DNA of 64,000 bases from Pseudomonadota bacterium (GTDB lineage: Bacteria > Bdellovibrionota_C > UBA2361 > SZUA-149 > DAOLCO01): contig JAIYCX010000013.1 in the NCBI GenBank assembly GCA_027487795.1, forward strand, positions 113,730 through 177,729. Direction: 5' to 3'. A model generated the notes under the pieces. The model ran no database searches, was not told where the DNA came from, and worked only from the letters and a program-made list of their open reading frames with translations. Both the position numbers and the translations under genes were made by a program. This document shows positions 4,609-51,767 of this stretch, piece by piece; position 1 is the stretch's first letter; the number at the start of each line of letters is the position of its first letter.

Positions 4609-6531
4609 CTAAAGAACCTTTCTCAGATCCCCAACTCTTATTGTTAATTTATTACTATCAAAATTTTCCAAAACTGGAACTGCCAGGTTTCTACTTAGTG
4701 CTGTCTTACCTCTAAAATCTATTAACGAAAAGCCCTCGGGATGGCTTTGTTTTAACTCTAACAAAACAGATTTGTAAAAATTTAACTTCGTAGTGGAAAA
4801 AACATATGTTTGGATATTTGTTATCAAGCCTTCAGACTCTAGCAGTTTTTGAATTGGTTTAAATTCTTGTTCTGTAAACTTTATTTCTTCCAATAAATTA
4901 ACTTTTGATATACCAGATACCACTTCTAATATGCGAAGTACTTTTTCGTAAGCTTCTAAGTCTTTTTTTGAAATTTCGGGCTTGAATGTTTTTAATGAAA
5001 AGTATGTTTTGTTGTAGGTTAATCTTTCATCTTTTAAAATAAAACTTCTAAATTTTTCCTCATCTAGACTTTCTACATTAAAACTTTCTGCGCTAAAGTA
5101 CTTACATATCTCGTACAAACTCAGTCCAAGCTTTAATGGATTTTTTAAGTGATACTTACTTATTATTGAAAATATTTTATTCTTAAGTGCTTCTTCTTTA
5201 TAAGCATTAATCCAAGAAGTTTTCCCAATTCTTATTAGTAAAGATTGTGCCTCAAATTGAGCTAACTTCTCCTCATAATAGCCTTCATTTAATCCAAGTA
5301 ATGCGACAAGATCTTTTTTATAAATAAAAATCCTCTCCCCTGCTAAGAGTTCAGATGAAGTAAAATTTCCGCTTAAATTAAAGCTACTAGAAGTATTAAA
5401 ATCCTCTATTCTCTTTTCACTATAACGCTTTCTAATCGGCCTTGAGGAGATAGATAAAACAGAGCCTCCTGCTACTGTATATGAATCTCTTAGAATGAAC
5501 TTATCCCCTGCACTTACTACGACTTCCTTACTAAATAATATCCTGCCTGCTGCTTCCATTCCTGGTTCTATTGTATTTCCACCAACTGGATAAACTCTAC
5601 ATGCTGCAGACAATGTTCCAAGGCAAAAAGTAAACTGCCTTCCTCTAACAATATGCTCGTTCTCAGAAGAATTTTTTAGCCAGACATTTATACTTTTTGT
5701 TTGATTAAAAACATTTGGCGTAGCCAAACAGACTCCTCGTTCAAAATCTTCTACCTCGGCACTTCTTAAATTTATAGCCGAGCTAATTCCCTGACTTGTA
5801 GCTAAAACCTCAGTCCTATAATTTTGAATGCTTCTTATATCTAATTTATTTCTCGTATGTGATGTAATAAGCTCTAATTCTTGATCTTTTAAAACCATAC
5901 CCTGACAAGGTATGCCAGTAACGACTACTCCTGCACCTTTCATAATGAATGCAGACCTAACATACATTCTAAAAGGAATGTTATTAGTTGTTTTTTCTAT
6001 TTTTATACTTGTGAGTACTGCTTCCTCTATTAGAAGTCGCAGTTCAGAAATTCCATAATTTGTTATAGAAGAAACTATGCTAATTCTAGAATCGTCAGAA
6101 ATTAAAAATTCAACTAAAAGCTCTTCAATTTCTTGCTCAACTTCTTTAATTCTAAATTCAGAAACTAAATCTTTTTTTGTTATCACCGGTAAGATTTTCT
6201 TAGCACCTAAGTGAGATAAAATTTGTAGATGCTCTCTAGTCTGTGGCATGACACCATCATCTGCTGCGACTATTAAAAGAGCGATTTCGATAGAAGAAGC
6301 GCCGGCTGTCATATTTTTTATAAAATCTTGATGCCCAGGAACATCTACTAAGCCAATGACATCTCCATTAGATAAAACAAAAGGTGCCACTGCAAAGTCA
6401 ATACTAACCCCCCTGAGCTTCTCTTCTGGGTGCCTATCGGTTTCAAACCCAGTTAAGGCTTTTACTAAAGAAGTTTTCCCATGGTCAACATGGCCGGCAG
6501 TGCCAATAATTATAGGTAAGGCTCGTGACAA
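4609..6531 (-). CDS. selB: selenocysteine-specific elongation factor SelB
   Basis: Delivers Sec-tRNA to UGA codons that are followed by a SECIS hairpin. 640 residues, normal for bacterial SelB. The N-terminal EF-Tu-like GTPase has P-loop [14 protein letters not shown] (residues 13-26), DVPGHQDF and TKKD. EF-Tu-like beta barrels follow, and the last 250 or so residues are the winged-helix repeats that bind SECIS RNA. It starts 7 bases after the selA stop and belongs to the selC-selA-selB unit. It implies UGA recoding in this genome, and a UGA-containing gene sits just beyond selC. Confidence 0.95.
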
Positions 6532-6538
6532 AATATGA

Positions 6539-7894
6539 CTATTGAAAATTATTTATACTGTTAATTATTTCAGTATCTTCAATATCAGAGACACCGCGAA
6601 GATCAAAATAAATCGCGCCATCATGAGTCCTAGTAAAAATACTTGGAGTTTGATTTCTTAAATAATTAGCAAATTTTTCAACTTGTTTATGCTTTATTCG
6701 AAACCCATAAGACTGAATTGCTCTATCTGGAGTTGAGCCTCCACCTAGATAACTATCCATCATAACGACTTCGGCATTATCAACAGATATTTCTGATAAA
6801 ATCTTATTAGCTCTATTTTTTAATTCTTTATTAGAGACACTTAAAAATTTATAAATAGGAATTTCCTCACTAACTTTATTATTTAGAAAACTAAGAAGGG
6901 TACCCTCTAATGCTCTTAAAGTAAGCTTGCAGGATCTGAACATTCTAGAAAATTCATTCTTTCTAATTCTATTAATTAAAGTTTCTTCACCGCTTAAAAT
7001 CCCAGCTTGAGGTCCTCCAATTAATTTATCCCCACTATAACAACAAACAGAAACTCCGAATTTTACACAATCTTCGACTGTTAACTCTCTCTCCAGTCCC
7101 CACTTAGATAAATCAACCAAAGCCCCACTACCAAGATCTGCAAAAACAGGAATTTTATGTTTTTTCCCTAGCTCACACAATTCTTCTAAGCTCGGAATAG
7201 ACGCAAAACCAGATATTCTAAAATTTGATTGATGCACAAACAATAATGCTGAAGTATTGGAAGTTATCGCTTTTTCATAATCTAATAAATGTGTTTTATT
7301 AGTAGTCCCAACTTCTACCATCTTACAACCACTAGCAGCCATAATATCTGGCATACGGTAACAGCCTCCGATTTCAACTAAATGTCCTCGGCTAATAATA
7401 ACTTCACGACCATCGCAAAGCTCTTTTAACATTATAAAAGTAGCTGCAGCGTTATTGTTAATTACAGTTGTAGCCTCAGCACCTGTTAATTCTTTTATAA
7501 TTTCTTCAATGAAATCTTCTCGTTTCGATCTTTCTCCGCTTGATCTATCAGCCTGAACTAAATTATAGCCAGCTCCTACTTCTAAAAATTCAGTTGCTAA
7601 GTCAGATAGTGGTGCCCTACCAAGACCAGTGTGCAGTAAAATTCCCGTACAATTGATTGCCCGTTTTCCTCCAAGGAAAACATGAGAGACTTCTTCTTTA
7701 ATTTTTTTAATTATTTTTTCAAAACTAGGAACTGTCTTTTTCTTCAGTTTAATTTCTGAACGAATCTGATCTAGTACTCGATTAGCAATTAACTTAACTA
7801 ATCCGATTCCTGTTTTTTGTATTAAATCACTTAGCTCCGTACAAGATAAAACTTTAGTGACCGCCGGTATATTCCGGTATGTATTTTCTTCCAT
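6539..7894 (-). CDS. selA: L-seryl-tRNA(Sec) selenium transferase SelA
   Basis: PLP enzyme that converts Ser-tRNA(Sec) to Sec-tRNA(Sec) using selenophosphate. 451 residues, typical length. The PLP lysine lies in YSGDKLIGGPQAGILSG (about residue 300), and VFADLGSGALVDL and EVGTTNKTHLLDYE are also family-typical. It lies between selC (upstream) and selB (7 bases downstream) on the same strand. selD, which makes selenophosphate, is not in the window and must be elsewhere if the pathway works. Confidence 0.95.
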   Translation of the reverse strand: MEENTYRNIPAVTKVLSCTELSDLIQKTGIGLVKLIANRVLDQIRSEIKLKKKTVPSFEKIIKKIKEEVSHVFLGGKRAINCTGILLHTGLGRAPLSDLATEFLEVGAGYNLVQADRSSGERSKREDFIEEIIKELTGAEATTVINNNAAATFIMLKELCDGREVIISRGHLVEIGGCYRMPDIMAASGCKMVEVGTTNKTHLLDYEKAITSNTSALLFVHQSNFRISGFASIPSLEELCELGKKHKIPVFADLGSGALVDLSKWGLERELTVEDCVKFGVSVCCYSGDKLIGGPQAGILSGEETLINRIRKNEFSRMFRSCKLTLRALEGTLLSFLNNKVSEEIPIYKFLSVSNKELKNRANKILSEISVDNAEVVMMDSYLGGGSTPDRAIQSYGFRIKHKQVEKFANYLRNQTPSIFTRTHDGAIYFDLRGVSDIEDTEIINSINNFQ

Positions 7895-7911: not shown

Positions 7912-8006
7912 TGGCGGAAGTATATGGGGATCGAACCCACCCAGAGCTTTTTAGGCCCTGCAACGGTTTTGAAGACCGCAAGCATCACCAGACACTTCAT
8001 ACTTCC
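7912..8006 (-). tRNA. selC: tRNA-Sec (anticodon UCA), selC
   Basis: About 95 nt on the minus strand. An 8-bp acceptor stem (GGAAGTAT/ATACTTCC), long D arm, anticodon loop CTTCAAA with anticodon TCA, long variable arm (GCAGGGCCTAAAAAGCTCTG) and T arm GGGTTCGATCC. A GCCA 3' end is encoded. The 8-bp acceptor, long variable arm and UCA anticodon are diagnostic of tRNA-Sec. It is the first element of the selC-selA-selB unit and diverges from the UGA-containing gene at 8157. Confidence 0.96.
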
Positions 8007-8156
8007 AGAGGATTAATAAGTTAAGATTTCAATAACTTAGATTACCATACACAAGTTTTGGTTTCTATAAAAATGATAATTAATTAAAGAACTTAAAAAA
8101 AGTCGCTAATGTACCGATTTACATCATAATATTCTATATTTAGACTAGTTTAATTA

Positions 8157-11100
8157 ATGCTTATTTCAAAAACAAATTCTTTCGGCTACATGCTCAAAGT
8201 ATACTTGTTTTTGTTCGCGTTTATTTCTTACTTTTATAGCACGGATACTCAAAGCCAAAACAGTCAAAACGACAACTACGTCCCATACGAACCTAAAACT
8301 GGCGGAAATCCAAACTCAACGACTCGTCCTGAAAAAATGGTCGAACAGAATATTGATAGGGCTTATCAAAACTTAGATAAATTCGTAAACAAAAACGGCA
8401 AAAGAATTTCAAATATTCCTCCTCAACAAAAAAACAAAGTAAGTAGATATGGTGAAAGAGGACCAGATAAAAATCCGCTAGAAAAAAACAACATAAACGG
8501 CACACTTGACAGGGCAAAGTCTTGGAATGAATATGTAATGGATAGTAGGGTCATTCTTAATGATTTAACATTTCCGCAATGTATGGAGCCTAGACTACTA
8601 GCTGAAAGAAGAAACGGAAGTGTTATATTACATGATCCTGCAAACGCTTTATACGCAGCTGCCTGTGCATTTAATTGCCCAAGAAGATTACTTCTAATCC
8701 CTATGAATAGAAATTGGCAAGTAACTTCCTATTATTGGCCTGAGTATCAAATTAGTGTTAACAGAGCTGGTGCTCAAATGATAGATACAGAAATCGTTAA
8801 CGAGAACAGAGGTCCTAGTGAACTTTATAGAAACCCAACATCTATTAAAGAGGAAAGTGACGGAGAGCGCGGAAGAGCAGCTCAGCTTGCAATTCTTGAT
8901 AGAATGGGAATCCCTGCAACTAATCAAGATAATTTCAAAAGTCCTAATTATCACAGAGCAACTAGTGAGTTTCACCTAAGACAGGATGGAGAATTAAGAT
9001 ATCCAAGTGCCATGAGACCAAATGCATTTTGGCGAGCTGCTAATGCAAGAAGAAGACAAAATATTGGCTACAGAAGAAACGATAGTTGCTTATTTAATGC
9101 ATTAGATCCAACAACTGCAAATAGAAAAGTAGTCGCAAATAGATTTGATCAAGGAGTATACTCTCTACTTGCTAGATATCCTGAATTAAGAAAAAGAACA
9201 GATAGAGAAAGATACAGATACACCACGCCTGCCGCAAGCAATCTTCAAGACTACAGAAATTTCACACCTCAACAATTCAAACAAAGTTTATGTGCATCAT
9301 GGAGAATGAGTTCTAATCCAGAAGTATACCAAGAACTAGAAAGAGCAGGATTTAGCTCACAAAATGATCCCAAATTCAGAGATTACTGCCTACCAGGTGG
9401 TCTAGACCTTAGCGGATCAATGCTTGCAGAGGAAAATACGCCAATATTACAGGCAGACGCAGCAAGAGCTGTAATGGGCGCGATTTGGTTTGGATCAGAT
9501 CAATCTCAATTTCAACGAATGAACAAAAATGGTAGAAGAACAGCTAAATACTCTCTATATAAAAATAGAAGGAGCTCATCAGTTAATAGATATGTAAACT
9601 TCGAAAGCAACCCTAGTGAAAATGAATCAAAAATTGTTTTCCTAGATAAATTTCAAAGAATATACCCCACCCAATCTTTAACTGGAGGAGATGGAGAAGC
9701 AGGAGCAAGTAGTAAAAATTTTAGAACTGATATCAATCAACGAGGTTCGCACTGCTTCAGACCAGAAGATATTCCAAATTGGTCTAGTGAAGGTAGAACT
9801 ACAAAATCTGAGTGGCCGCTTGGTTTAATGCTGGACTCCTCAGAACACTTCGGAGAAACTAGATGGGCAGTATGGAATAGAAGAATAGTTTGTAGCTGCG
9901 AAGATTTAGGTATTTTCTCAGGTTGTTTAAATTTAAATGACGGAGATCACGATGAAGAAGTTTTCGCTGGAACACTTGGATTCACCGGAAGAAAAATGCC
10001 TCCTGCATTTGAGAAGGCTATACCTATAGTTAGAGGATTAGCTAATCAAACGAGTGCACCAAGCGCTCGTAGTGGCGGGTCAAAAGGATTTGATTTGAGT
10101 AGTGTCACTGTTGATTCAAGAATAGCAGGTAGCACATTACCAATAATGCCAGGGGGTGGACAATCTACTCCTCAAGTATCGGAAGCAAACCAACAACCTC
10201 AAGATATGTTCATCTGTATGGCTGCGGAAGAACAACAAGATCAGAACAATCAAAACGGTCAAAATAACCAAAACAATAACCAGTCTCAAAATGGACAAAA
10301 TAGCAATTCAAATACTGGTAGCAATACTACGACCGGAGGTAACACAACTACAGGTAGCACCGGTGGAACAGCGGGACCAGCAACTGGCTCTACTGGGGGT
10401 GGTACAATTAGTGGTGGTAGTGGAGGAGCCGCTGGTGGTGGAATAACTGGTGGCGGTAGCGCGCCTACAACCGGAGGTGGTGGAGGTAGTTTTGGTTCCG
10501 GCAGTTCTTCTGGTGGCTTCGGTGGCGGATTTGGGGGAGGGTTTGGCGGAGGGTTTGGAGGAGGATTCGGCGGTGGACCACCCACCTGAGTAGGTAATTC
10601 ATGCAATAGAGCTTTCGCCGGGCGCGAGGGACCACAAAGAACAGTAAGATTAAAAAGGGTAAGAACAGAAGCCAACGGTTCTATCAGCGCCGTACAAATT
10701 GGTAGTGGCTTTAATTGTCGAGGTGAAGATTGTATTTTTGGGGCCAGAAAACTAATCTCTTCTAATGTTGGTGAAAAACCTTTCACTAAAACTACCTGCA
10801 CCGAAACTCAAAATTTAGATGGATTGTCATCAATTTATTGTGGTGACGCAGTGCAGCGAAAAATGCAAGAAAGGGAAAAAAGCTGAGGCGGCGGATCTTG
10901 CGACACCGGTGGTGGCGCGTATGATAGTGGGTACTCAGACGGAGGAGGATATTCTTCCGGAGGTGGCCAAGGATTCTACCAACAAGGTCAGAATGGTCTA
11001 GAATATTGTCAGCCAGTATCTTCAGAAGATTATAATAACTCTGGAGGAAATTCGGGCGGTGGTGGCGGAGGTAGTGGATGTGCCGGTGGTAACTGCGGTG

Positions 11101-11687
11101 GTGGTGGCGGTGGTGGATCTGGTGGCGGTTGCGCAGGTGGCAACTGTGGTGGTGGCGGAGGAAGTGGAGGTTCAGGTGCAGGCTCTGACGGCGGCTTAGG
11201 TGGTATTGGAGGTATTGGCGGAATCGGAGGTATCGGTAATGGACTCGGCGGAGTTGGGGGCATTATTGGTATCGGTGGAATTGGCGGTATATTAAATGGA
11301 TCTCAAGGAAATTCTGGCTCTGATACAAGTAATGGAAGCAATCCTTCAAGCAGCCCCTTACCTATAGTTCCGATAGAACAACCAGCTTCACAAACTGGAG
11401 CTCAACAACAAAATGGACAGCAGGCCGTGACTCAACCTCAATTCAATCCAAGTCCACAGTCTATAGTACCAAATATCGCACCAGTTACGATAACAGATCC
11501 ACAGATAGTAACTCCGCAGCAAGTTAGTCCTGCTCAAAATAATACCATTCAGGATAATACCCCTCAAATTGAGCAACCAAACATACCTAGCTCTAATCCT
11601 TCTCCTTTACCGATAGTGCCACAGCGCACCATTAATAATTCTAATTCCGGCGAAAAGAAAAAGTCATTTGGAAATTTATTCGATTAG
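8157..11687 (+). CDS. secreted Gly-rich selenoprotein with two in-frame UGA (Sec) codons; possible TraU-like body
   Basis: Read through UGA at 10587 and 10884, this is one frame of 1177 codons. A conventional caller gives an 810-residue gene ending at the first UGA and a fragment from 11427. A Sec signal follows the in-frame ATG at 8190 (MLKVYLFLFAFISYFYS), which may be the true start. Residues 90-620 are a Cys-, Arg- and aromatic-rich domain (AACAFNCPRRLLL, YYWPEYQISVNRAG, DAARAVMGAIWFG, WNRRIVCSCEDLG) that weakly recalls TraU-type conjugation proteins. Then come an Asn/Gln tract and a Gly-rich tract. Sec811 opens UVGNSC, CRGEDC follows, and Sec910 opens UGGGSC, with CAGGNC twice after. A Gly/Ile then Pro/Gln tail ends at TAG 11685. 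Continued coding after each UGA, conserved Cys and the adjacent sel genes support Sec. Without selenium it would give an 810-residue short form. Confidence 0.85.
10590..10630 (+). promoter_or_regulatory. candidate bacterial SECIS for the first UGA
   Basis: Downstream of UGA 10587-10589, CTTTCGC (10612-10618) pairs with GCGAGGG (10624-10630): 7 pairs including two G-U, loop CGGGC. The loop begins 30 nt after the UGA and has G in its first two positions, matching the known loose bacterial SECIS rule (loop about 16-37 nt downstream). The fold was paired by hand. Confidence 0.55.
10887..10919 (+). promoter_or_regulatory. candidate bacterial SECIS for the second UGA
   Basis: Downstream of UGA 10884-10886, TGCG (10899-10902) and CACC (10904-10907) pair with GGTG (10911-10914) and CGCG (10916-10919) around one A-G mismatch. 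The loop is GGU. It begins 22 nt after the UGA, within the bacterial SECIS range, and a GGU loop recalls the loop of E. coli fdhF. The Gly-rich coding context makes chance hairpins likelier, so this is supportive only. Confidence 0.5.
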
Positions 11688-11703: not shown

Positions 11704-12660
11704 ATGAAAAAAATTTTATCGTTCTTATTTATTCTAATATTATCAAGTAGCCCTGTACTTGCTGATAATGATCCCTTCTCAAGTCCGACCGTAGTTTATG
11801 TTATCGCAAGCGGAAGTAATTTAAATCATGTAAGAGAAGTGGTAGATAATACAGTTCGCCTCTCAGCTAAAGTTCCTATTAGAAGTTTTACTCTAGTACA
11901 AAAACTGAGTGAGATATCAGCAACTGCAACAGACGACAAAGAAAGCTCAATTAAATCTTACGACTCTGCAATTTCTCCGATAAAGCAACTAGGACTTGAA
12001 GAAACTAGTACAGACTCAAGTTTAACTACAGTTAAAGAACTAAGACTATCATACTCTCCTACTTGGATAGTAAAAGCTAATGGCAGAGAATATGTATACG
12101 AGGGCTACCAAGATATTTCTAAATTTTTTACTAGAGATGGAATATTTTTAAATAAAATAGAAGGTACTTCAGAAACTGAAAATCTCGGTAATATTGCACT
12201 TCATGAAAAAAGATCTACAAGTATAAATTTCCCCCTAACATCAGAAAAACAAACTACTGAAAATTTAAATATCGGTATAATATTTAAACCTGGAGCAAAC
12301 GACCCCTATCCAGATCTTGATGATAAAGTAGAAAACTTTATAGCCTTACCAAAATGCATCACAGCAAAAACAGAGCTTGATGAAGTCTTTCATGACACTC
12401 CCGGCAGTGAAAGTTTAGACACTATCATATACGATCCTAGAATTATGAAAGAACAGAAATTAGCGTCAAGTCAAAAAGTTGCGACAATCCCTTGGGATCC
12501 CAACTACGACACAAGCGCCGGACATGAATCTGCCGATGCAAAACTTCAAGATCTTGCCAGAGTATTAAATCCAAGATGTTTACCTGCAAGATTTAGCTTT
12601 ACCTATTCTGGCAGCAAACGTTATCAAAAAATACAGTACGGCGACAAAGCGTGGGAGTAG
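11704..12660 (+). CDS. exported TrbC/thioredoxin-fold-like protein
   Basis: I chose the ATG at 11704, where a Sec signal starts (MKKILSFLFILILSSSPVLA), giving 318 residues. Residues 25-150 have the look of the thioredoxin-like TrbC proteins of conjugation systems: VVYVIASGSNLNHVREVV, then a C-terminal strand with SYSPTWIVKANGREYVYEGY, where TrbC has its substrate-like Pro-containing strand. No CxxC redox motif is present. The C-terminal half is not recognised and has two Cys. It begins 16 bases after the selenoprotein stop, so the two probably form one operon. The family call is weak. Confidence 0.55.
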   Translation: MKKILSFLFILILSSSPVLADNDPFSSPTVVYVIASGSNLNHVREVVDNTVRLSAKVPIRSFTLVQKLSEISATATDDKESSIKSYDSAISPIKQLGLEETSTDSSLTTVKELRLSYSPTWIVKANGREYVYEGYQDISKFFTRDGIFLNKIEGTSETENLGNIALHEKRSTSINFPLTSEKQTTENLNIGIIFKPGANDPYPDLDDKVENFIALPKCITAKTELDEVFHDTPGSESLDTIIYDPRIMKEQKLASSQKVATIPWDPNYDTSAGHESADAKLQDLARVLNPRCLPARFSFTYSGSKRYQKIQYGDKAWE

Positions 12661-31241: not shown

Positions 31242-31562
31242 ATGAATGTAGAGATGGTTGATTTTAAAAAATATAGAAATATTTGTATCTTTTTAACGGT
31301 ACTTTTTGCTACTTCTACTGCTTGCTTTGCACAAGATGGAGCTGGAATATTCGAAAAAGCAGCTTGTAATTTACTAGATCAAGTATTAGCTAAAAATTTT
31401 GGATCGATGATAACTGTTGTAGCAGGAGTCATAGCAATTATCAGCTCAGTAGTGGGATCTTTTAGAACAGCTTGGGTACTAGTCTTCGTATCAGTTGGAA
31501 TTTATATATTCCCTAGCATAGTAAAAATATTTTTTCCAAATTTGGCATGCGTTGTTAACTAG
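31242..31562 (+). CDS. VirB2-like pilin 4
   Basis: 106 residues. A signal segment (ICIFLTVLFATSTACFAQ) with an AXA-type end, then the hairpin ACNLLDQVLAKNFGSMITVV, SSVVGSFRTAWVLVFVSVG and the closing FFPNLACVVN. The Cys pair is kept. GGAGG precedes the ATG at normal spacing. It overlaps the longest frame of the next gene. Confidence 0.75.
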   Translation: MNVEMVDFKKYRNICIFLTVLFATSTACFAQDGAGIFEKAACNLLDQVLAKNFGSMITVVAGVIAIISSVVGSFRTAWVLVFVSVGIYIFPSIVKIFFPNLACVVN

Positions 31563-31587
31563 TAATGTATTAAGGATGATGAGATTT

Positions 31588-32115
31588 ATGAAAAATAAAA
31601 AATTTAATAAAATTCATAAGGCTCTTTTCTCAGTTACTATCCTAACTATTTTACCGACTTCAGCATTTGCTCTTCAAAGTGTTGACTTTGCTATAAGTGA
31701 AATCTGCAAGCACATGGAAGGTAGCCTTGGCAGTCTTCTCATGATAGCTGCCGGCGTCGGTGGAATAATTTCTGCCGCAATGGGTAACATAAGAGCAATG
31801 TACTCATGCCTTATTACAGCAATTGGCGCTTTTACTATATCGTCTATGCTATCATTATACTTCCCTGCAGCTGCGGAGAAATGTTCTAACGGTACTTCTG
31901 GTGGAGGAGATACTTCTAGAACCTTAACTAGTACATTTAAGCAAGCTAGAGTCTCTTCATTCGATGCAGAATCTGTAGCAAAATCTTATATCGAAAGAAC
32001 TTCAGGTCTACAAAATACTGAAGTAATAGAATCTGAAGATACTTCCAAAAATACAGATGAGAAAATAGAAAAGAAAGATCCAACCTCTGAAGATGAAGAT
32101 CATGAGCTTTTCTAA
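31588..32115 (+). CDS. VirB2-like pilin 5 with an acidic tail
   Basis: 175 residues from ATG 31588 (MKNKKFNKIHKALFSV signal). ATG codons at 31576 and 31579 are alternatives and the longest frame from 31552 is unlikely. The hairpin is EICKHMEGSLGSLLMIAAGV, GNIRAMYSCLITAIGAFTIS, then AEKC. A Ser/Thr and acidic tail of about 70 residues follows the second Cys (KIEKKDPTSEDEDHELF), not seen in pilins 1, 3 and 4. The tail end overlaps the start of the next gene. Confidence 0.72.
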   Translation: MKNKKFNKIHKALFSVTILTILPTSAFALQSVDFAISEICKHMEGSLGSLLMIAAGVGGIISAAMGNIRAMYSCLITAIGAFTISSMLSLYFPAAAEKCSNGTSGGGDTSRTLTSTFKQARVSSFDAESVAKSYIERTSGLQNTEVIESEDTSKNTDEKIEKKDPTSEDEDHELF

Positions 32116-32551
32116 AATTCTAACATACTTAAGTTTATTTTTAATCTTAACCACCTTCTTAGGAAACCCAGCTCAGGCACAAAATGCCGCAGAACCTTGG
32201 GACGGCGCCTATACCAGCGAACCCTTTGCTGATGGAGCTATCAGAGATGTTTATTGTGACCTAATTAATTTAGTCGAAGGTAATTTTGGTGCCCTACTTT
32301 TTGTAGTAGCTGGAATTTTAGGTATTACTCTAATCGCATTTGGAGATATGAAAAATGCTGCGACGATGTTGATTGTCGCTATCAGTGCAGTTACAATAGG
32401 TACAGGTATAAGTTTATATTTCGGGGACTTAGGTTGTAGTGCAAGTAGTTCAAATACATCTAGATCTAACTCATCTTTAGAAAAAAATATTAGTAATTCA
32501 TCAATCGATGATTTAGTAGATGAAAATAGTGACAATACCTCACTTTTCTAG
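32093..32551 (+). CDS. VirB2-like pilin 6 with a Ser/Asn tail
   Basis: 152 residues (ATG 32102 also possible). The signal ends at NPAQAQNA. The hairpin is VYCDLINLVEGNFGALLFVV, AFGDMKNAATMLIVAISAVT and DLGCSASSS, with the Cys pair kept. The loop carries Asp and Lys (GDMKN), not the GGFK of pilins 1 and 3. The polar tail of about 35 residues ends in DNTSLF, similar to the DEDHELF end of pilin 5. Confidence 0.72.
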   Translation: MKIMSFSKILTYLSLFLILTTFLGNPAQAQNAAEPWDGAYTSEPFADGAIRDVYCDLINLVEGNFGALLFVVAGILGITLIAFGDMKNAATMLIVAISAVTIGTGISLYFGDLGCSASSSNTSRSNSSLEKNISNSSIDDLVDENSDNTSLF

Positions 32552-51598: not shown

Positions 51599-51618
51599 TT
51601 GTTGTTTTTTGGTAAATT

Positions 51619-51692
51619 TTCCTAGTAGCTCAATTGGTAGAGCGCCAGTTTAAGTAAGCTGAAGGTTATAGGTTCAAATCCTATCTAGGAAG
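51619..51692 (+). tRNA. tRNA-like gene with abnormal anticodon loop
   Basis: Perfect 7-bp acceptor TTCCTAG/CTAGGAA, D arm GCTC/GAGC, T arm ATAGG-TTCAAAT-CCTAT. The anticodon arm fits either CAGTT-TAAGTA-AGCTG (6-nt loop) or a 4-5 bp stem with 8-nt loop TTAAGTAA, not 7. There is one base more than usual between position 26 and the T stem. Identity uncertain. No CCA encoded. Confidence 0.6.
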
Positions 51693-51694
51693 TT

Positions 51695-51767
51695 AGGGAT
51701 GTAGCTCAGTTGGGAGAGCGTTTGCATGTATGCAAAAGGTCGTTGGTTCGAGTCCTTCCATCTCTAT
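51695..51767 (+). tRNA. tRNA-Ala-like gene with 6-nt anticodon loop and weak T stem
   Basis: Acceptor AGGGATG/CATCTCT (one G-U), D arm GCTC/GAGC, anticodon arm TTTGC-ATGTAT-GCAAA with one base fewer than the ATGGCAT loop of ordinary tRNA-Ala. The T stem GTTGG/CCTTC has two mismatches. The body is otherwise like tRNA-Ala. Possibly decayed or special-purpose. Confidence 0.5.

Follow-up and report, generated by a model that had tools for sequence, protein, structure and literature searches.

Whether two in-frame UGA codons terminate a gene or are read as selenocysteine (Sec) within one long protein is the question raised by the locus described here. The gene lies in a stretch of 64,000 nucleotides from a Pseudomonadota bacterium (assembly GCA_027487795.1, contig JAIYCX010000013.1, positions 113,730 to 177,729), which as a whole is called the window. 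Judged from its sequence, the gene likely codes for a so far undescribed protein that contains selenium and belongs to a predicted F-type pilus or secretion machine.

The whole frame of the proposed selenoprotein (8157..11687, plus strand) comprises 1176 residues and a stop when UGA is read as U. Translation of the frame identified in-frame UGAs only at codon 811 (UGA-1, U811, 10587..10589) and codon 910 (UGA-2, U910, 10884..10886), followed by a TAG at 11685-11687. Over 10587-11687, each of the five other frames contained 14 to 28 stops, of which 4 to 21 were TAA or TAG, whereas this frame contained the two UGAs and the final TAG, and no TAA or TAG before 11685. Ordinary calling of open reading frames (ORFs) splits the frame into an ORF of 810 residues (8157-10589) and a separate ORF of 86 residues (11427-11687). 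The encoded protein consists of a conserved domain (residues ∼57-630, 8325..10046), a Gln/Asn-rich and then Gly-rich linker as far as UGA-1 (10224..10586), the UGA-1 motif U-VGNS-C, a segment between the UGAs that retains a C-x4-C pair (residues 812-909, 10590..10883), the UGA-2 motif U-GGGS-C, and a Gly/Cys-rich tail with C-AGGN-C repeats and a Pro/Gln-rich end (10887..11684).

The genes for Sec decoding are located directly beside this frame on the minus strand: selC for tRNA-Sec (UCA) at 7912..8006 (ARAGORN; Rfam RF01852, 76.6 bits, gathering threshold 47), selA for Sec synthase at 6539..7894 (PF03841, 389 bits) and selB for the Sec-specific elongation factor at 4609..6531 (PF00009, 121 bits; SelB-wing_3, 40.7 bits; TIGR00475, 283.7 bits, above its cut-off). 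The divergent intergenic region from selC to the selenoprotein gene (8007..8156) is a putative shared promoter region. A preliminary description of this DNA had proposed the continuous frame, its downstream part called as a separate gene of 86 residues and the divergence from selC-selA-selB; all three were confirmed by the translation and by the coordinates of the tRNA and of the hidden Markov model (HMM) matches. The genome also contains selD, which that description had left to be checked; it is of the Cys type and is located on another contig.

In a search of 5.8 billion proteins, 13 homologues with 41-64% identity were found, one of them named Oligoflexia bacterium. Two of these, P0005 (1048 residues) and P0008 (993 residues), are full length and UGA-free, with Cys occupying positions 811 and 816, and in a related genome, G001, position 811 is a UGA. 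Homologues with Cys or U at residue 811, as sought in the preliminary description, thus exist. For residue 910 this held in part: the G001 counterpart, U-GGGD-C, was matched by eye and by an identical hairpin spacing and has no alignment column, and the similar C-x4-C motifs with Cys in the homologues likewise share no alignment column with it. When the segment between the UGAs was compared with P0008, phmmer gave 15.1 bits, compared to at most 6.6 bits for 224 reported shuffles. As judged by eye from protein sequences only, P0004 and P0011 end immediately before the position of UGA-1, and the last residues of P0002, P0006 and P0010 are C-x-x, compatible with a C-x-x-U motif. The tail resembles the Cys tails of P0005, P0008 and a paralogue in genome G013.

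The order was represented by 15 genomes, with the window genome G000 in one family (f1) and G001, G010 and G013 in another (f2). A profile of the N-terminal domain matched at E ≤ 0.001 in 13 of the 15, and the best match fell below E 1e-60 in only four: G000, G001, G010 and G013. The values of G000, G010 and G013 are so low partly by construction, because their sequences built the profile; G001 was not in it. SelB was above the cut-off in three of the 15 genomes (G000, G010 and G013); in G001 it lies at a contig edge, covers model positions 70-579 and remains below the cut-off, and G014 has a fragment of 50 positions only. The genomes with SelB above the cut-off or at a contig edge are therefore the same four that have N-terminal domain matches below 1e-60.

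Frames at 20 loci were read through UGA. Full-length homologues without TAA or TAG until their end were found in G010 (contig C105), with six in-frame UGAs, and in G001 (contig C215), with three; both terminate in CPFC plus one residue. In G001, selC and selA are directly divergent from the gene, matching the layout of the window in another family of the same order. The outcome that would have spoken for truncation, a stop at the first UGA and no conserved sequence beyond it, is absent in both of these full-length UGA-bearing homologues, which are readable as DNA. The G010 relative probably carries up to six Sec, as predicted from its frame. In G013 the tail is unreadable, because the contig ends inside the N-terminal domain. 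UGAs near the end of a frame, e.g. at loci L042, L045, L051, L057 and L059, were taken by eye as ordinary stops or upstream sequence and were not counted.

Nine of the 11 UGAs in the three genes lie within C-x4-C or C-x2-C motifs. The motifs are UVGNSC and UGGGSC in the window, UGPGGC, CTTU, WUPU, CTGPGU and CGGGGU in G010, and UGPNGC, CPTU and UGGGDC in G001. C-x4-C units with Cys alone occur in P0005, in P0008 and in paralogues in two of the genomes. One of these, in G013 (contig C9, L048 3742-8385), has 1527 residues, a UGA-free coding part and blocks of C-x4-C rich in Gly and Cys; SelB is present in this genome. In the other, in G001 (contig C274, L045 628-3821), the TraU-like part is in a different frame from the tail, which has Cys alone and contains KCPFCK close to its end, and this paralogue is a frameshift or two genes. 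Short UGA-free paralogues are present in G010 (contig C300) and G001 (contig C187).

The limits for a bacterial Sec insertion sequence (SECIS) are a loop of 3-9 nucleotides with G within its first two positions, a stem of 4-16 base pairs, a distance of 16-37 nucleotides from the UGA and a minimum free energy of at most -7.5 (PMC13188914). Hairpins within these limits lie behind nine of the 11 UGAs, compared to 17-31% of all codons in the three genes; both window UGAs are among the nine (-8.5 and -10.0). SECIS-like hairpin 1, CUUUCGC[CGGGC]GCGAGGG (10612..10630, plus strand), has its loop 29 nucleotides past UGA-1, and hairpin 2, CACC[GGU]GGUG (10904..10914, plus strand), 21 nucleotides past UGA-2. 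With plain stem-loop scoring, the UGAs exceeded 1914 tail codons (P 9e-5). The motif CC[GGU]GG, which was picked post hoc after inspection, with GGU exactly 21 nucleotides after the UGA was present at five of the 11 UGAs, compared to 11 among all 3765 codons (P 3e-11). It also occurs at 33 nucleotides behind a sixth UGA, and loops of CGGGA or CGGGC stand behind three more. Covariation was examined on six sites with the 21-nucleotide spacing, including that of UGA-2 and one of an unrelated gene in G010 described below; this number is small, a single gene contributes three of the sites, and the same sequences served to derive the structure. The covariation score of 0.495 was reached by none of 500 shuffles and by no slid structure, and three of seven stem pairs were changed on both sides in a compensatory manner. 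A covariance model of the six sites gave no further match with E under 0.01 in 11 genomes, nine of which were scored on 150 first-look candidates only; the next match, in G007, had an E-value of 0.0109.

The preliminary description had called the protein conjugation-like. This was right in kind, as its N-terminal domain is distantly TraU-like. A profile of the window protein aligned by hhalign with a TraU-like set at a probability of 100 and E 3.8e-41; this set held nine of the 11 order relatives in L049-L059, with L051 and L056 omitted and L057 and L059 trimmed at UGA. One of the nine relatives gave a match to TraU (PF06834), with 24.7 bits compared to a cut-off of 26.5 (E 1.8e-5). An AlphaFold2 model of the domain had a mean pLDDT (per-residue confidence) of 71 and a pTM (predicted template modelling score) of 0.75, with no match in the PDB. 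The window protein had no PHROGs match.

Directly downstream (11704..12660, plus strand) is a partner gene, a fusion of two genes that are separate in G010 and G001. Among seven chosen sequences, blastp matched it to a gene in the G001 locus (L044 7056, 1e-18) and to two L040 genes (9e-13 and 1e-14). The partner appears to be TrbC-TraW-like, a label that stays an inference because no HMM matches the gene. TrbC and TraW form a single polypeptide in some systems, and TraU is periplasmic with potential redox sites and an unsolved structure (PMC7555446). Pilin-like genes matching the G001 locus span about 30-32.5 kb of the window. They include 31552..32115 (plus strand; 47% identity, 1e-32 to L044 9239; TrbC/VirB2 at 13.8 bits, below the cut-off) and 32093..32551 (plus strand; 46% identity, 2e-23 to L044 9866; PF04956 at 17.3 bits, below the cut-off). 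On the same contig, ∼100 kb from the selenoprotein gene, a cluster (G000:C60, L084 10652-19819) contains genes for an F-type TraC (PF11130, 42.0 bits, cut-off 28.1; the TIGR02746 equivalog cut-off was not reached), a TrbI/TraB-like protein (PF03743, 54.2 bits, cut-off 35) and a weakly TraK-like protein.

Some results tell against the TraU assignment. The kinship with TraU runs via relatives, and eight of the nine relatives scanned had no TraU match; the window protein itself matched no Pfam family and no NCBIfam family at E ≤ 1, TIGR04081 included, and the partner gene matched none either, the TrbC and TraW models included. A role of the window protein in a pilus or secretion machine is considered probable.

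The likely mechanism is as follows. SelB with Sec-tRNA would dock on the hairpin downstream of each UGA and Sec would be inserted at both, after which the protein would be exported. Its N-terminal domain may then act like TraU, together with the TrbC/TraW-like partner, in assembling the pilus or stabilising mating pairs. In the C-x4-C units of the tail, Sec replacing one Cys could form selenylsulfide or diselenide bonds outside the cytoplasm, and such bonds might cross-link or switch the tail. Under selenium shortage, termination at UGA-1 would yield the TraU-like domain without the tail. The bonding role of the tail is called a guess, with somewhat less than an even chance of being right. The full picture is put forward more tentatively still: a pilus or secretion machine with a selenium-bonded appendage, made of a TraU-like subunit with a Gly-rich tail and two to six Sec, whose bonds are structural and not catalytic; this machine would be the chief reason why the lineage keeps the Sec-decoding genes. 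If true, structural Sec bonding in an appendage would be a bacterial role of Sec that has not been described.

A different function of the same selenoprotein has to be weighed here, since repeated Cys/Sec pairs in a flexible chain could hold soft metals. A 2026 review suggests that metals may be bound by Sec in several selenoproteins other than this one (PMC13188914), which counts in favour of a tail that acts as a ligand for metals or metalloids, or as a selenium store, instead of cross-linking a secretion machine. The neighbours, however, are pilin-like genes and genes resembling those of type IV secretion systems (T4SS), no metal-resistance gene was noticed alongside, though no search was aimed at such genes, and some homologues as well as one paralogue tail have Cys only. 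A metal-binding or selenium-storing tail is therefore regarded as rather unlikely, though well worth keeping in mind.

With respect to decoding, several observations weigh against a reading of the two UGAs as Sec. Hairpins of equal energy were present at 26.5% and 19% of the codons within 300 nucleotides of the two window UGAs. The bare stem-loop behind UGA-2 is weak (-2.2 kcal/mol), and that behind UGA-1 has a different loop and was not reported by the covariance model. The excess of plain stem-loop scores over 54 tail Cys codons was modest (P 0.007), and the pair changes on both sides were equalled by 35 of 500 shuffles. Two of the 11 UGAs, 963 and 965 in G010, failed the hairpin filter; an interrupted hairpin with the loop GUAAA (-8.6 kcal/mol) was located there by hand only. 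Site 1 of G010 is C-x2-U and not U-x4-C. Among the homologues, P0003 and P0014 end elsewhere than at UGA-1, and P0007, P0009, P0012 and P0013 end before the Gly-rich part. The segment after UGA-1 was significantly similar to P0008 only: P0005 had a best domain of 7.1 bits and fails to exceed its shuffles like for like, because its whole-sequence score was -2.6 bits compared to whole scores of up to 4.1; G001 scored 4.0 bits (shuffles to 6.3) and G010 0.3 bits (shuffles to 7.4). A database search with this middle segment gave no match.

One rival reading takes UGA-1 as an ordinary stop, with a product of 810 residues followed by remnant coding sequence or small separate genes; P0004 and P0011 are called as ending just before that position, as judged by eye. 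UGA is an ordinary stop in these genomes: it ends four of the 48 other window ORFs of at least 150 residues as well as selA of G001, and G000, G001 and G010 each have an intact release factor 2 (RF2; 506 to 513 bits, G000 506, cut-off 370). The Cys homologues, on the other hand, continue through UGA-1, the tails encoded in two more genomes again contain UGAs, mostly in Cys-like motifs and with a common hairpin, and the frame has no TAA or TAG before its end, so that termination at UGA-1 is judged very unlikely. Decoding of UGA as another amino acid (Trp, Cys or Gly, or by near-cognate read-through) could be imagined in a Gly-rich tail, in which GGA to UGA is a single step. It is hard to reconcile with the intact RF2, with the presence of selA, selB, selC and selD and the position of selC next to the gene in two families, with Cys, neither Gly nor Trp, at position 811 of both UGA-free full-length homologues, and with the hairpins, and it is given hardly any weight. 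That sequencing or assembly errors made the UGA codons of these draft contigs is practically dismissed, as UGAs occur in like motifs of separate genomes and are followed there by a conserved hairpin.

It is thus concluded that UGA-1 and UGA-2 are very probably read as Sec. The selenoprotein reading of the preliminary description is supported by the homologues with UGA or Cys and by the hairpins, whereas Sec insertion itself and secretion remain inferred. In a limited selenoprotein search of G000, neither of the two PF04879 matches had a UGA in the matched frame, and SelD is of the Cys type; therefore, the window gene may be a main user of the Sec genes.

A genome search for the hairpin pattern gave 50 matches in four genomes, five of which were the known UGAs; 25 were inspected among 30 loci listed. 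The pattern led to a second selenoprotein candidate, predicted in G010 (C75:18049-18077; L116 10076-10504 and onward, minus strand) and unrelated to the TraU-like gene. Its protein is export-like, rich in Tyr, Asp, Glu and Pro, and contains C-H-T-UGA, with the repeat EY[IL]DCY[DN]Y[YD]TGEWMEDLCGPQP flanking the UGA on both sides. The compact motif of UGA, 21 nucleotides and CC[GGU]GG may hence serve as a finder, which has already exposed this second hidden candidate. Matches in L091 and L106 are open for at least 60 codons on both sides but were non-coding in appearance as judged by eye. On several contigs of G001 a dispersed repeat with copies like TGACTGCTGCCTTGAGGAACAACCGGTGG fits the hairpin pattern, we think by chance.

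Elsewhere in the window, positions 742-2574 encode a protein that looks secreted, carries dockerin repeats and weakly matches a Hint-type domain; L161 (G001:C233) contains a stretch related to it by eye. At 51618-51767, directly after a tRNA-Lys, ARAGORN found a pair of tRNA-like genes whose two-base anticodons it left undetermined.

Compared with known systems, the window protein resembles TraU (PF06834) in its Cys residues, an export-like N-terminus (by eye), the putative TrbC/TraW-type partner and the pilin-like genes. It is much larger, has a Gly/Cys/Sec tail and UGA codons, and does not itself match the TraU HMM. Unlike F-type conjugation systems, the window genes are located on a contig of 177 kb, and tblastn of the homologue P0005 gave no plasmid match. 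An in-frame UGA, a downstream hairpin, selA/B/C/D and Cys homologues are shared with known bacterial selenoproteins, from which the genes described here differ by their two, three or six UGAs, mostly in a low-complexity tail. Animal selenoprotein P is a secreted protein with many Sec in its tail, which makes it similar by description to the window protein as predicted here; its insertion machinery and its domain are different. It has been called unique for its multiple Sec residues (PMC6301783). The selenobacteriocin TIGR04081 (SGUG, two Sec; PMC13188914) is alike in that Sec adjoins Gly in a protein that is not an enzyme, and unlike in that the window protein lacks this match.

An earlier published account of such a selenoprotein was not found in the mainly open-access literature, with bioRxiv outside its scope. 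A 2026 catalogue lists 119 prokaryotic selenoprotein families or subfamilies with one to three Sec per protein; T4SS, TraU and pilus entries are absent from its Table 1, and its main text does not contain the terms TraU, conjugat, pilus or secretion system (PMC13188914). Because ordinary ORF calling truncates such proteins at the first UGA, families of this kind may be overlooked. The window gene would add to the catalogue a selenoprotein family in the missing class of secretion and pilus machines, and the G010 relative, if its six UGAs are fully decoded, would double the maximum of three Sec per prokaryotic protein given there (PMC13188914). Besides enzyme active sites, this comparison suggests a bacterial use of Sec in low-complexity exported chains.

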